In this document: in pieces, positions 13,719-24,267 of the stretch
Layout of the letters: every line of letters starts with the position of its first letter
Position numbering within the stretch: the stretch's first letter is position 1
Assembly: GCA_007753675.1 (NCBI GenBank)
Contig: CP036432.1
Coordinates: 10,201,381 to 10,265,380 of the forward strand
DNA: 64,000 nt
Direction: 5' to 3'
Origin: Stieleria magnilauensis
GTDB lineage: Bacteria > Planctomycetota > Planctomycetia > Pirellulales > Pirellulaceae
Notes under the pieces: generated by a model
Told to the model about the DNA's origin: nothing
What the model saw: the letters and a program-made list of their open reading frames with translations, nothing else
The model's database searches: none
Translations under genes and position numbers: made by a program

Positions 13719-13735
13719 ATAGGGGTGGCAGGACT
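13719..13735 (+). repeat. Left attachment site (attL core)
   Basis: ATAGGGGTGGCAGGACT, identical to 20198-20214. The flanking bases differ on both sides, so the core identity is exactly 17 bp. It lies 12 bp after the stop of the gene at 12169. Confidence 0.88.
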
Positions 13736-13933
13736 ACGCGGATGCTGGGAAAAACCGGGTCCAAACCCGATTCAACGGATCGCGGCACACAAATAGGCAC
13801 ACTTTCGCCCGAAAATGCCCTTCAAATCATCCGCTCGGATGAGCGTTTAGCGTCCCTGGTCGAGCGCTGGCCGGACCTTCCGGAAGACGCGAAGCAAGCA
13901 ATAATCAACGCGGAAAATCTCTCAAGCCGGTAG
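13736..13933 (+). CDS. Detached integrase C-terminal segment
   Basis: An open stretch of 65 codons starting immediately after attL, ending at TAG 13931-13933 and finishing with LVERWPDLPEDAKQAIINAE. If the element is excised and circular, the integrase frame crosses the 17-bp core and continues in this frame without a stop. The frame arithmetic is exact: codon ACT at 20212-20214 corresponds to 13733-13735. The WPDLPE..AI segment resembles C-terminal tails of planctomycete tyrosine integrases as I recall them. In the integrated state an internal ATG at 13742 could give a 63-residue peptide, but it has no good ribosome site. Confidence 0.75.
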   Translation, partial: TRMLGKTGSKPDSTDRGTQIGTLSPENALQIIRSDERLASLVERWPDLPEDAKQAIINAENLSSR

Positions 13934-14739: not shown

Positions 14740-14940
14740 ATGAAAGAACCAAATCTCTGGCCTGAGTGGATGCAGGTCGAAACCGCCGCCCGATACGCTG
14801 ACGTCCCGCCCGGAACAATTCGGCGATGGATCAAGCGTGGTTTGGATCACGTGAAGATTGGAGACTGCACGCCGTCCATCAAGCGGACAACGCTCGATAA
14901 GTGGATGGCCGAAAAAGCATCGGAGCCAGTTTCATGCTGA
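14740..14940 (+). CDS. Helix-turn-helix protein (excisionase-like)
   Basis: 66 residues with one MerR/excisionase-type winged helix: VETAARYADVPPGTIRRWIKRG, followed by KRTTLDKWMAEKA, the usual end of the HTH_17 fold. It probably binds element DNA as a directionality factor or repressor. Its last codons overlap the ATG of the next, similar gene (ATGCTGA, 14934-14940), so two related DNA-binding proteins are translationally coupled. Upstream, 14655-14715 carries several ATTCGGA/TCCGAAT motifs that could be operators. Confidence 0.75.
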   Translation: MKEPNLWPEWMQVETAARYADVPPGTIRRWIKRGLDHVKIGDCTPSIKRTTLDKWMAEKASEPVSC

Positions 14941-15179
14941 AAGCGGCCGATCTTGCCGAGCCAAACATCGTGGTCGCTGTCGAGCCGGTCTCGGTTTCAG
15001 TTTCCGACGCCGGCGCGATACTCGGCGTCTCAAGCCGCACGATCGAAACACTGGTCGCCCGCGGAACGCTTGAAAGTTTCCGAATCGGCAACCGTCGATT
15101 GATCGCGGTTGAAGACATCCGCGATTATGTCGCCCGCCAACGAACGCTCACGCGGAAGGGGTCACCCGATGAAAATTGA
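14934..15179 (+). CDS. Helix-turn-helix protein (excisionase-like), second copy
   Basis: 81 residues from ATG 14934, which overlaps the previous stop. The middle has a clear HTH_17 signature: VSDAGAILGVSSRTIETLV, then RGTLESFRIGNRRLIAVED, as in excisionases and related small DNA-binding proteins. It is followed by an 11-bp overlap with the helicase start, placing it in the replication/excision operon. Likely an excisionase or copy-control protein; which of the two genes plays which part cannot be told. Confidence 0.78.
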   Translation: MLKAADLAEPNIVVAVEPVSVSVSDAGAILGVSSRTIETLVARGTLESFRIGNRRLIAVEDIRDYVARQRTLTRKGSPDEN

Positions 15180-16845
15180 GCCTCTCCGTGTGCCGAATCG
15201 ATCGACAACCGGCGCGATCACCGAAAACACGGGCGAATATCGCAACGGTTCGCGTCCCACGGGGACTAATCAACCTTTCGATGGCGAAGCGGAACGTGCG
15301 GTTCTTGGTTCGCTGCTGATCGACGGTCGAATCGAAACGGCACAACGCGTTTTCGGTCGCTTGTCGCCGCGTGATTTTCATGATGACGGCAACCGATTGA
15401 TTTTCACGGCAATGTGCGATCTTGCGGTCGATGGCAAGCCGGTTGACGTGGTGTTACTGGCCTTAAGATTGAAGTCGCAAAATCGATTCGATCGCGTTGG
15501 CGGGGCGAGCTACATCGCGCGATTGTCAAATGCCGTACCGTCGGCTGCGATGGTCGATCACTACGCGGACACCGTTTCGAAACACGCCCAAAGCCGCCGA
15601 CTAATCGAATCGCTGCAACGGGCCATTCAAGACGCTCAGGCTTCACCCGATGACCTCACGGGCATTGCGGCATCGCTTAGGGCAAATCTCGATCAAGTTG
15701 TCGCAGCGAATCCCGACGGCGAATGGGAAAGACTGTTGAGCGCCTACGGCATCGATCCGCCTTGGACGTCTGCCGAGCTTGCGACCGCCGACATCGTGAC
15801 GACGTATCTGGTCGAAAACGTCCTGGTTGCGAATCAGTCTTGCGTCATTGCCGGCGGCTCGAAGGGCATGAAGACGACATCGGGCATCGACCTTGCGTTG
15901 TCACTCGCGACCGCTCGCAAGTTTCTTGGTCGCTTTTGGATCCCGGATCCGAAACGCGTTTTGTTTCTGTCTGCCGAATCAGGGGCGGGCACCATTCAAG
16001 AAACAGCATTGCGAATCGCAAAGTGGAAAGAACTTGATCTTGCGACCGAGGCGAATATGCGTTGGGGGTTTTGGGTGCCGAAGGCACGCAACGCCGAAAT
16101 GCTCAAGATTCTCGGCAAGCAACTTGATGAAAGCCGCGCCGAAGTGTGCATCATCGATCCGCTCTATCAGGTTCTCGCGGGCGAAGACCAAAATAATCTA
16201 AGTCTGAACGGGCAGCAAATCACAATTGTCACCGACCTTTGTCTTTCGCGCGGATGCACGCCCGTCTTGATCGACCACGTTAAGAAATCAAGCGAAAATG
16301 CTCGCAGCTATCAGCCGCTCGAACTGAACGACGTCACCGGCGCAGGGAAAGCCGAGAATTTTCGTCAATGGCTGTTGTTGTCGCGCCGTGAGCGCTTCGA
16401 GCCGGATCACCCGATACATCGCTTGTGGATGACCGTCGGCGGCTCGGCGGGTCATTGCGGGGCTTATGCAATCGACATCGACGAAAGCCGCGACGAAGAC
16501 GGCAGCCGGACGTTCGCGGTCGAAGTGTCAAGCGCCAGCCAAGCACGCGAGCACGATCGCGCCGAGCAGGAACGACAAAGGGCTAACGCTCAGGCAAAAA
16601 AGGATGCCGAGCGGATTCGGCTCAGCGTCAGCAAAATCCGCAAAGCGCTGCCCGTAGATGAGCATTGGAGCAAAAACCAAATCAAGAACGCGACCGGATT
16701 GAATACCGGGCAGGTCAGTTCCGCTATCGCTCACCTGCTGGACCAAGGGGAGATCCAAACCGGGCGTTACAAAAACGAGACCGGACCCTGGTTTGAGGGC
16801 GTGAAATGGACCGAGAACGCCACCCATTTAAGGAGCACCAAATGA
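15169..16845 (+). CDS. Fused DnaB-N / RepA-like AAA replication helicase
   Basis: 558 residues from ATG 15169. Residues ~35-170 match the DnaB N-terminal domain (EAERAVLGSLLIDGR, DFHDDGNRLIFTAM, VGGASYIARLSNAVPSA), which in DnaB binds primase. The ATPase part is not DnaB-like but of the RepA/AAA_25 type: modified P-loop GGSKGMKTTSGIDLA, VLFLSAESG and a Walker B-like CIIDPLYQVLAGE. The C-terminal ~90 residues contain a winged-helix-like part (IKNATGLNTGQVSSAIAHLL). It likely loads or drives replication of the excised element. The stop overlaps the next ATG (AATGA). Confidence 0.82.
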   Translation: MKIEPLRVPNRSTTGAITENTGEYRNGSRPTGTNQPFDGEAERAVLGSLLIDGRIETAQRVFGRLSPRDFHDDGNRLIFTAMCDLAVDGKPVDVVLLALRLKSQNRFDRVGGASYIARLSNAVPSAAMVDHYADTVSKHAQSRRLIESLQRAIQDAQASPDDLTGIAASLRANLDQVVAANPDGEWERLLSAYGIDPPWTSAELATADIVTTYLVENVLVANQSCVIAGGSKGMKTTSGIDLALSLATARKFLGRFWIPDPKRVLFLSAESGAGTIQETALRIAKWKELDLATEANMRWGFWVPKARNAEMLKILGKQLDESRAEVCIIDPLYQVLAGEDQNNLSLNGQQITIVTDLCLSRGCTPVLIDHVKKSSENARSYQPLELNDVTGAGKAENFRQWLLLSRRERFEPDHPIHRLWMTVGGSAGHCGAYAIDIDESRDEDGSRTFAVEVSSASQAREHDRAEQERQRANAQAKKDAERIRLSVSKIRKALPVDEHWSKNQIKNATGLNTGQVSSAIAHLLDQGEIQTGRYKNETGPWFEGVKWTENATHLRSTK

Positions 16846-18861: not shown

Positions 18862-20253
18862 ATGGCATCGATTCGAACTGAAGCAAACGGGCGGTCGAGT
18901 GTGCTTGTGATCCAGCGTGACCGCAAGACCGGAAAGAAACGCCGCCGGACAATCCGCCTACCTGAAATGAAATCCCGAGCGGTTGAAGACGCGGCGGAGC
19001 GGATCCAAGAACTGGTCGATCGGTATCACGATGGCGAGACACCCAGCAAAGCGGCGCGGCATTGGCTTGACGGGCAACCGGACGTTTTGCGCGATCGCCT
19101 GGAACGATTCGGAATCGTCGAAATGAGCGCGGAGAAGCGGGATGCCATTGAAGCCGCCGAGCAGGGCCAGCGTGAGGAAACGAATAACATCACGATTCAA
19201 CAACTCGCCAAGCGTTTCCTAGACTTGAAAAGCAATCAGAAGAAGTCGACGATTCTGACATTTGAGAACGTCATCGCGAATCTAAAAACTCACTTCGGAA
19301 GCAATCGGTTGATTCACACGATCACCCCTTTCGATGCGGAGAAATTTGCGACTTGGTTGGCGACGAAAAGCAACCGCCGCGATACCGCCCAGAAACGCAA
19401 GTCACTTTCGAAGGCAACCGTCGGGAAGCGTATCGGAATCGCTCGGCAAATTTTCAAGACCGCGATCAAGATGAAAGTCTTAACCGAAAACCCATTCGCT
19501 GAAGTGAAGGCGGCTAACGCGATCAACCGAGACCGCCAAGTGTATGTCTCGGTTGAAGACATCAACCTTTGTTTGGAACAAGCCCCAGGCCAACAGTGGC
19601 GGACAATCATCGCCCTTTGCCGATTCGGCGGACTCCGCAATCCATCGGAAGTTTTGCGACTGCGTTGGATCGATGTTGATACGGTCAACTATGAATGGAT
19701 GATCGTTCACAGTCCGAAGACCGAGCACCATGAAGGCAAAGAATCCCGCCGCGTTCCGATCTTCGGTCAACTGCAGAAGGAGCTTGAAGCATCTTGGGAC
19801 GCTGCCGAGGAAGGGGCCGAATGGGTTGTCAGCGAATACCGTTGCCCGTCGCAAAACATGCGTACCACGTTTCAGCGAATCATCAAGAATGCTGGTCTGG
19901 CCCCTTGGCCAAAACTGTTCCAGAACTTGCGGGCGTCAGCGGAAACCGACTTCATCCGGGCAACCGGCGGAATGACCAAATTGGTTGCCGAGTGGATGGG
20001 CCACAGCCCAAGAATTTCGCTGGTCCATTACGACATGACCCACAAGGCCGCGCAGGAGGGTGCCATTGCCAGCGTCAAGGCGTTTTTCGCGGCACACGAT
20101 ACAGGCACAGCAATGGACCGAAACAGCCCGCAAGCGACCGAAACCGAAAGTGCAACATGCGAAAAACCCCGTAAACACGGCGTTTCAGGGCAAAACCATA
20201 GGGGTGGCAGGACTCGAACCCGCGACCAAGGAATTATGAGTTCCCTGCTCTAA
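18862..20253 (+). CDS. int: Tyrosine integrase crossing its own att site
   Basis: Tyrosine recombinase of 463 residues as read in the integrated state, starting at ATG 18862 after AAGGAG. The SAM-like core-binding domain is around residues 110-210. Catalytic motifs are GGLRNPSEVLRLRW (first Arg), QNLRASAETDF (second Arg region), WMGHSP (His) and VHYDM (Tyr, near residue 390). The final ~14 codons after the att core lie in the antisense strand of the tRNA gene (ending DQGIMSSLL). In the excised circle the frame would instead enter the segment at 13736-13933, giving 516 residues. It should catalyse integration and excision at the tRNA 3' end. Confidence 0.9.
   Translation: MASIRTEANGRSSVLVIQRDRKTGKKRRRTIRLPEMKSRAVEDAAERIQELVDRYHDGETPSKAARHWLDGQPDVLRDRLERFGIVEMSAEKRDAIEAAEQGQREETNNITIQQLAKRFLDLKSNQKKSTILTFENVIANLKTHFGSNRLIHTITPFDAEKFATWLATKSNRRDTAQKRKSLSKATVGKRIGIARQIFKTAIKMKVLTENPFAEVKAANAINRDRQVYVSVEDINLCLEQAPGQQWRTIIALCRFGGLRNPSEVLRLRWIDVDTVNYEWMIVHSPKTEHHEGKESRRVPIFGQLQKELEASWDAAEEGAEWVVSEYRCPSQNMRTTFQRIIKNAGLAPWPKLFQNLRASAETDFIRATGGMTKLVAEWMGHSPRISLVHYDMTHKAAQEGAIASVKAFFAAHDTGTAMDRNSPQATETESATCEKPRKHGVSGQNHRGGRTRTRDQGIMSSLL
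20198..20214 (+). repeat. Right attachment site (attR core)
   Basis: Second copy of ATAGGGGTGGCAGGACT. It covers the last 16 positions of the tRNA, including the discriminator base, so integration leaves the tRNA sequence intact. Confidence 0.88.
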
Positions 20254-20272
20254 CCGACTGAGCTACACCCCC
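20199..20272 (-). tRNA. tRNA with CAU anticodon (probably elongator Met)
   Basis: 74 nt. Acceptor GGGGGTG pairs with CACCCCT, discriminator A. The D arm has AGCTCAGTCGGTTAGAGC, the anticodon loop is CTCATAA (anticodon CAT) on the stem GGGAA/TTCCT, and the T arm is GCGGGTTCGAGTCCTGC. The 3' CCA is not encoded. A CAU anticodon can be elongator Met, initiator Met or Ile2. The acceptor has a closed first pair (G-U), which argues against initiator; elongator Met is most likely. Confidence 0.9.
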
Positions 20273-22396: not shown

Positions 22397-24220
22397 TTAG
22401 CGACGTCTGGTTGACTTGTTGAGGAGGCGGCGGCGGGCTCGGCGGGTGCGTTTGCGGTCGGCGGCTTGGCGGCGTTCGTCCTGCCTGTACTCGCGAATCG
22501 ATTCAGGGTGCTCCGCTTTCCATGCGTGGGGAGTCAGTACGGACCAGTCTGTCTCGCCGGCGAGCGCCCTCCGTAAGACATCGTCCAAGTACGCTCGCAC
22601 GTCCAAGTCGTTGCGGATCGCGCTGCCGATGATCGTTAGCAGGTTTGCTGCTCGCTCTCCTGAAGCCACCGAGCCCTTAAAGAGCCAGTTCTTCCTTCCC
22701 GTGGCGACGCGTTTCATCAACTGCTCGCAATCGTTATTGTCCAGCGGAATCGTCGCGTCCTCGGTGAAGCGGCACAGTGCTTCCCAGTGACGTCGCACAT
22801 AGCCAGCCGCCACACCGAGATTGCTCTTGGGAAGAACCGACGGTGACTGCATCGCTTCGCTGTCGAGGTACTCCGCGATCTGGTCGAGAACATGACGCGA
22901 TAAGCTTTGACGTCGCGCAAGACGCGCTGCATCGTCAAGCTCCTTGATCTGGTCTTCTACGTCGTAAAGCATCCGAATCAGCGACTCCAACTTCGCCACT
23001 TGCAGAGGGAACGCACCGCGACACTCATCGATCTTGCGACGCGCATGCGCCCAGCATGCCGCGAACGTGATTCGCGAGTCACTTCGTAGATCGATCTTTT
23101 GAAAACCCGACCAGCAGTCTCCTAGGACGTTGCCTTTAAAATCACTCAGTACATCATCCGGTCCATCGCGGTGACGACTCACCGTAAAATCGAACACCAC
23201 CACCGGAAGACGTGAGGCGTAGTAGCCCCACATGTTTGCGTTGATGCTTGGCTTGCCGGACTCGATCGCATTTCCAAGCACTTCGCCGATCCGCTTGCCG
23301 CGGGGATGTTCCGATAGGTCAGGCATGGCCTTCGGTGTGATCAACAACACACCGGTGTCGTCGCAGCCGACCGTGCGATCGTGCTTCAAAACGCTTCGCA
23401 AGTAATCAGCAAGCGGACGAAGCGCGAACTCGACGGCCGTTTCGATGTTCCCCAATGTGCTGCGACTGGGCGTCCAGCCACTGCCGGCGAACAGATCTTG
23501 CTGACGATAAAACGGCAGGTGATAGAAGTATTTCCAGGCCACAACTTCGACTCCAATCGAGGCGTCAAAGCGATCGCCTTCGACCAGACCGGTGGGACGC
23601 TCGGGAGTGACGATTCCTTGTGATTTGTCGGTCGGGTGAGCGTACTTGGCATACTTGGTCACCCGGACTTTCAGTTCACCGGCGGTGCTTTCGAGCGTCT
23701 CGACTTCGTCATAGCCGATCAGGATGAGGCCTTTGCGTTGGGCTTCGGGCAGGTCGACGATCTTTTCGTATCGCGGCAAGTGTTCGGGGAACTTGCGGTC
23801 GCTTGGTTCCGGACGTTTCTTTCTGCGTTTCTTGTTTGCCTCTTCGGCGTCATCGACAATCTGTTCGGCCTCGCGAATGGCTTCTTCCAGCGCGCTGACC
23901 ACCTCGGGCGTGGGCTCTTCTCCGAGATCCAAAAACAACTGGCCTTCGCCATCGACGCGTCGTTCACTCTTGCGCCCGTAGAGTTGTTTGAGCAGTTTTT
24001 CGATCTTCAGGTTTAGCTCGATGACCTTCTCGTCGAGCTTGTCGTGATCGGCTTTGAGTTCCAGGACGCTATGAGCTTGCTCCTCGATCAGCTTGTCTTT
24101 GAGCGATAGCTCGGTGGCCTGCTTGCCAATGATCTGTTGATGTTCGCCGACCTGCGATTGCAGCTCTGCAATCAGTTGATGGCAAGCGTCGATGTCGTTT
24201 GGAAGAGGCTTCGAATTCAT
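22397..24220 (-). CDS. tnpC: IS66-family transposase TnpC
   Basis: DDE transposase of about 607 residues from ATG 24220. A long N-terminal coiled coil (EQAHSVLELKADHDKLDEKV) is followed by the zinc/HTH region, the catalytic core (VGCDDTGVLLITPKAM, WAHARRKIDECR) and the IS66 C-terminal motif PLDNNDCEQLMKRVATGRKNW, with TIIGSAIRNDLDVRAYL after it. The C-terminus is Arg-rich. It works with TnpA and TnpB. An intrinsic terminator lies between it and tnpB, so read-through or a separate promoter is needed for expression. Confidence 0.95.
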   Translation of the reverse strand: MNSKPLPNDIDACHQLIAELQSQVGEHQQIIGKQATELSLKDKLIEEQAHSVLELKADHDKLDEKVIELNLKIEKLLKQLYGRKSERRVDGEGQLFLDLGEEPTPEVVSALEEAIREAEQIVDDAEEANKKRRKKRPEPSDRKFPEHLPRYEKIVDLPEAQRKGLILIGYDEVETLESTAGELKVRVTKYAKYAHPTDKSQGIVTPERPTGLVEGDRFDASIGVEVVAWKYFYHLPFYRQQDLFAGSGWTPSRSTLGNIETAVEFALRPLADYLRSVLKHDRTVGCDDTGVLLITPKAMPDLSEHPRGKRIGEVLGNAIESGKPSINANMWGYYASRLPVVVFDFTVSRHRDGPDDVLSDFKGNVLGDCWSGFQKIDLRSDSRITFAACWAHARRKIDECRGAFPLQVAKLESLIRMLYDVEDQIKELDDAARLARRQSLSRHVLDQIAEYLDSEAMQSPSVLPKSNLGVAAGYVRRHWEALCRFTEDATIPLDNNDCEQLMKRVATGRKNWLFKGSVASGERAANLLTIIGSAIRNDLDVRAYLDDVLRRALAGETDWSVLTPHAWKAEHPESIREYRQDERRQAADRKRTRRARRRLLNKSTRRR

Positions 24221-24267
24221 GATGGCGACATTATAAATTTCACTCCAAATCGCGCAAAGCAAGGCGC

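Follow-up and report, generated by a model that had tools for sequence, protein, structure and literature searches.

An integrase gene that contains its own attachment site in Stieleria magnilauensis, and a C-terminal module apparently stranded by integration in related planctomycete elements

The form of the integrase encoded by a small integrative element of Stieleria magnilauensis is very probably set by whether the element is integrated or free. Since the attachment site lies inside the element's own integrase gene, joining the chromosome would exchange the end of the enzyme. The stretch of DNA analysed (64,000 nucleotides, hereafter the window) contains the integrated state, and the idea that integration state selects the integrase form, put forward in a sequence-only reading of this DNA, is supported by relatives found in both states: most of those on cellular contigs end in antisense tRNA, several of those on viral contigs have the long form, and one close pair represents the two states side by side.

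The element and the two frames of its integrase

Judged from its sequence, the window carries a 6.5-kb integrative element inserted at the 3' end of a tRNA-Met gene. The 17-bp core ATAGGGGTGGCAGGACT is present in two identical copies on the plus strand, attL at 13719-13735 and attR at 20198-20214, and represents the 3' end of the intact target gene on the opposite strand, tRNA-Met(cat), which was identified by ARAGORN (20199-20272, minus strand). The plus strand of the element encodes two small excisionase-like HTH proteins, at 14740-14940 (HTH_17, 1.1e-5, slightly below its cut-off; phrog_66, 7.6e-7) and at 14901-15179 (HTH_17, 1.9e-10; phrog_66, 2.7e-6), and a replication-type protein with DnaB-N and AAA_25 domains (15109-16845, start codon uncertain; PF00772, 2.1e-25; PF13481, 3.6e-17; phrog_19, 9e-28). 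A PHROGs scan of the seven element ORFs revealed no convincing structural protein, the matches to terminase small subunits being weak and confined to the HTH proteins. Near the element, on the minus strand, lies a 621-aa ORF (22397-24262) that we take to be an IS66-type transposase. The same genome contains four further relatives of the integrase (L002, L003, L004 and L005), three of which terminate within antisense tRNA genes (Gln, Lys and Arg) and the fourth in a tRNA-like peptide at a place without an ARAGORN tRNA.

The integrated form of the integrase (18862-20253, plus strand) consists of 463 aa and belongs to the tyrosine recombinases of the phage integrase family (PF00589, 2e-8, and PF13102, both over cut-off). 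The attR core lies within its frame, starting in codon 446, and is followed in translation by a tail of 12 antisense-tRNA residues and a stop codon (20215-20253, plus strand); the coordinates, phase and lengths originally given for this passage through the core into the antisense tRNA were all confirmed. Residues R259, K286, R357 and Y390, which we take to be the catalytic candidates, precede the core and occupy invariant columns in 24 aligned rows. The codon of the presumed catalytic tyrosine, Y390, is located at 20029-20031 on the plus strand, in agreement with the earlier claim that it lies upstream of the junction.

Joining the element ends at the core produces a 516-aa frame, the length that the sequence-only reading had predicted for the circle, which extends 65 codons past the core to position 13933 and terminates in ...VERWPDLPEDAKQAIINAENLSSR. 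This tail (65 codons and a stop, 13736-13933, plus strand) is in the phase of the integrase only in the joined arrangement, and includes a C-terminal module containing a Trp residue, located with a leave-window-out profile at approximately 13832-13930 on the plus strand (the range is our own estimate). The two remaining phases past attL reach stop codons after 19 and 34 codons. The existence and phase of the 65-codon frame, as first described, stood up to translation of the joined sequence, but its length is not rare, as 27% of positions on the plus strand of the element are open for such a run. Frame length was discarded as evidence for the layout, long open frames being frequent in this DNA, and the test therefore had to rest on relatives; what goes beyond chance, according to the comparisons below, is how often the layout and the tail module return among them.

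Tails beyond attL in related elements

A search of 241 genomes belonging to the same family gave matches to the joined protein in 187. A first set of relatives comprised 40 places, hand-picked largely on the length of their contigs, in stretches of at most 20 kb, which together with the window make 41 loci, and 33 of the 41 integrase ORFs terminate within antisense tRNA. Considering the five longest repeats per locus, attL was located in 24 loci, in which 12 bp or more at the 3' end of the tRNA are repeated exactly. In all 24 a tail of 43-107 aa follows attL in the phase of the integrase, and in 23 it outlasts both other phases, for which the median is 13 and a length of 40 is attained by 4 of 48. 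Locus L049 was set aside because its integrase ORF stops short of the site, leaving 23 tails.

Alignment A1 was built from 13 of these 23 tails and three tails from loci without an ARAGORN tRNA at the site, and its members have in common a module built around one invariant Trp. The ten other first-set tails were excluded by eye (L039, L042, L043, L050, L052, L054, L055, L063, L067 and L072). With leave-one-out profiles, 15 of the 16 loci have the true tail as their top-scoring six-frame piece, and 13 of the 16 reach E<=0.01; the tail of L071 ranks second (E 1.4). Scored by the profile made without it, the window tail comes first among 1413 six-frame pieces, at E 0.046 compared with 0.11 for the runner-up. 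The segment 13736-13933 thus resembles the tails of other integrases, a comparison that the sequence-only reading had proposed along with its converse, membership in an unrelated gene family; no Pfam family matched the segment. For the 16 module members a Pfam scan gave no convincing family, with one match at E 0.027, and an NCBIfam scan of the tail gave nothing over cut-offs. Elsewhere in the phylum, a search of 119 genomes at E<=1e-5 detected the module in 11, the genome of the window counted in.

Two other tail types lack the Trp motif. One belongs to tRNA-Val and tRNA-Met elements (L039, L042, L043, L052 and L067), several of whose tails read like VVPPVVPLAPIPDALGRVL, and the other, found in two tRNA-Gln elements (L055 and L063), is like HLDDAxLxxLL.

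A scan of genome contigs yielded 519 relatives, and the best 80 of the 519, nearly all labelled Planctomycetota, were analysed; this set overlaps the first in places (for example, L151 is the place of L043). Among these best 80, 76 integrase ORFs are closed; 62 of the 76 terminate within antisense tRNA, with 11 isotypes represented, and the tail module is absent from all 76 (E<1e-4). Homologues sharing the C-terminus encoded at 20215-20253 had been named as a finding that would count against the exchange of tails; instead, the relatives end in the antisense tRNA of their own targets, as the model predicts. An attL within 10 kb was found in 15 of the best 80 loci, none of whose tails belongs to A1. 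The frame past attL in the phase of the integrase matches the module (E<=0.01) in 13 of the 15 loci, compared with none of 75 control frames, and 12 of the 15 tails match at E<0.001 when ended at the first stop. The integrase phase is the longest in 11 of the 15, the longest being another phase in L155, L167, L177 and L217. At L169 the integrase-phase tail stops after 20 codons, yet the frame beyond the stop matches the module, and this tail has perhaps decayed.

The reverse test, which started from module matches outside A1, covered 20 loci. In nine of them an integrase was matched on the strand of the module, and the module is in phase in all seven of the nine that have a repeat. For L110 and L116 it is the linker, not the tRNA, that holds the longest repeat; L121 has an integrase without a repeat, and L123 only an integrase fragment ahead of the module. 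For 11 of the 20 module matches no integrase was found within about 20 kb. Locus L109, with no integrase in 20 kb, has two same-strand copies of the module approximately 850 bp apart, which are perhaps remnants of stacked elements. Element sizes, where determined, are mostly 5.6-19 kb; the element of the cultured relative Lacipirellula limnantheis I41 (L217), at tRNA-Met, measures 7.7 kb.

Long frames, predicted structure and alternative readings

A scan of viral contigs using the window protein alone confirmed nothing, while one using an alignment identified 33 relatives. Eight of the 33 (L230, L233, L235, L236, L239, L240, L244 and L260) encode integrase and module in one frame, and judged by their tails they represent about five distinct long frames. 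Ahead of the module, L230, L233 and L239/L240 have a T-arm-like core in antisense. The genes of L233 include one for a terminase (phrog_9, 4e-174), those of L240 one for a Mu-F-like head protein. The viral contigs carrying the long form, some of them phage-like, are not proven closed circles; the circularity tests revealed no contig-end overlap in L127-L130 and L139 and no circular permutation in L239/L240.

The close relatives L240 (long form) and L243 (frame through tRNA-Ser) align at the DNA level up to GGGATTCGAACC and then diverge: past the shared tRNA-Ser core, L240 enters the module and L243 enters the tRNA gene. A quick tree was made of 136 rows, omitting the near-copies L231, L232, L236, L240, L260 and L261, five loci of the first set and all rows that are short or open-ended; the five long forms in it require five changes. 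The long forms are therefore scattered over the tree as expected for states rather than lineages.

Contiguous modules were also found in five (L127-L130 and L132) of 14 stretches chosen for contiguous frames or as further integrases of the window's genome. The contiguous frames of L127 and L132 look like tandem-insertion junctions: the core embedded in L127/L141 has 16 bases in common with a tRNA-Glu 10 kb further on, and L132 has an apparent tandem junction at tRNA-Gln. L128-L130 carry the contiguous module on short contigs. Tandem insertion into one tRNA gene would appear to fuse the upstream integrase to the tail of its neighbour, so that the chromosome would hold a single chimeric frame running across the junction.

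Among annotated phages, only weak partial matches to the integrase (nine records) and none to the tail were found, and annotated plasmids likewise gave only weak partial integrase matches (seven records), the best identities in phages and plasmids being 23-27%. In a DNA search of phages, matches were confined to tRNA-type stretches.

An AlphaFold model of the L240 integrase was built with 33 alignment rows. It has a confident body with an N-terminal domain rich in strands, a region with pLDDT below 50 at residues 375-459 and, after this linker, helices at 461-474 and 477-489 in blocks with pLDDT of 69-89. In a fold search its best PDB match is lambda integrase (E 5.5e-11), the match covering the integrase body; the lambda enzyme, however, is without such an added module, and lambda attP lies outside int. 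In this model the core falls in a disordered linker ahead of a two-helix module. In our reading, because the antisense-tRNA stretch would encode linker, reading it antisense would cost little and the layout could persist.

A core in a disordered linker is also what would be seen if the exchange of ends were real but functionally silent, the core occupying a dispensable linker, both forms recombining alike and the module doing little or something unrelated. Such silence is a possibility to which we give the lesser weight. The catalytic residues are present in both forms, and the module is divergent, the ten first-set tails excluded from A1 lying outside its alignment; on the other hand, it recurs in phase across several locus sets, and the changed integrase of Mx8 is described as less active (PMC4701971) or altered in specificity (PMC6070905). 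On this analysis we lean slightly towards a form swap that also acts as an activity switch.

It is improbable that the segment past attL is conserved as DNA, namely as an integrase-binding attP arm of which the open frame is a by-product. Lambda integrase binds arm sites, and the strand-rich N-terminal domain of the modelled relative and its resemblance to the lambda enzyme would lead one to expect such sites beside the core. The likeness to the protein profile, however, occurs in one phase and in none of the control frames, its final part forms two helices in the structural model, and second codon positions vary less than third ones: the ungapped pair L052/L067 has 15, 9 and 22 differences at the three codon positions (p 0.06), and pooling it with L046/L117 gives 34, 21 and 44 (p 0.018), which is modest evidence of selection acting on the tails as protein. 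That the tail forms a small gene of its own, or is open merely by chance, can hardly be entertained, despite an ATG six bases past the core and the abundance of open runs of this length in the element, as 18 of the 23 tails of relatives have no ATG leaving 28 codons and three have no ATG, GTG or TTG there at all, by which a stand-alone gene was ruled out, and the viral contigs have integrase and module in a single frame.

Proposed mechanism and known systems

The exchange of integrase ends on integration, our preferred reading, very probably operates as follows. The attachment site lies within the integrase gene of the element itself, in what is probably a linker-coding stretch behind the catalytic domain. 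While the element is a free circle, this gene would be whole, encoding 516 aa that comprise the catalytic domain, the antisense-tRNA linker, a second linker and the two-helix C-terminal module. On integration the core would be the point at which the gene is severed; what encodes the catalytic part, kept at attR, would acquire a host-derived tail of 12 antisense-tRNA residues (463 aa), and the module would be stranded beyond attL without its gene. Excision would restore the long form. The long form may be the integration-competent enzyme, while loss of the module may lower or redirect activity, and the integrated copy would be slow to reverse the reaction without an excisionase-like HTH protein.

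The principle of an attachment site inside the integrase gene is already known from Mx8, SSV and the rumA ICEs (PMC4383910, PMC4701971, PMC6070905 and PMC8371274). In Mx8, attP is described as lying within int, and integration as replacing 112 C-terminal residues by 13, with a changed enzyme that is less active (PMC4701971), or not inactivated and altered in specificity (PMC6070905). The window integrase is comparable in both features of this kind, having the core within its frame and a longer joined frame with a different C-terminus, and the Mx8 int gene contains an antisense T-arm-like stretch. BLASTP of Mx8 Int against the window integrase gave no match (best E 2.5) and in this comparison indicates no descent from the Mx8 enzyme; the module profile likewise gave no meaningful match to Mx8 Int and no module-like tail. 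Mx8 is a single 49.5-kb phage, whereas the planctomycete family consists of many elements.

The archaeal SSV-type 'suicidal' integrases also have the attachment site in the integrase gene, which is split by integration, and a review calls self-disrupting recombinases exclusively archaeal (PMC8371274). In the SSV type, so described, the catalytic part is separated from the N-terminal part, whereas the window integrase, whose core starts past Y390, retains a whole catalytic part and exchanges the tail alone. In streptococcal rumA ICEs an att site is described within the integrase gene, the excised form differing in length and C-terminus (PMC4701971); these are serine integrases with rumA as target, unlike the planctomycete elements, which use tRNA genes. 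A literature search of open-licence PMC papers yielded no recognised description of this planctomycete integrase family, and what appears to be new is the breadth of the layout, the recurring module and its stranded copies.

Throughout the phylum, Planctomycetota may harbour a class of phages and small elements with a dedicated integrase C-terminal module that belongs to the gene in the free state alone and is lost through the very reaction whose catalysis it assists, a one-step control of direction by gene layout, in which tandem arrays make chimeric long integrases and tails are exchangeable between elements; we hold this wider reading to be evenly balanced between true and false. The product of integration would encode a different enzyme from its substrate, whereas the usual guard against reversal is a separate directionality factor. 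The layout, described as rare (Mx8, SSV and the rumA ICEs), is yet common among the planctomycete relatives sampled, and direction control by gene layout would become testable across many natural variants. It would also explain integrase ORFs that terminate in antisense-tRNA peptides, and the stranded module would serve as a marker for the left ends of these elements.
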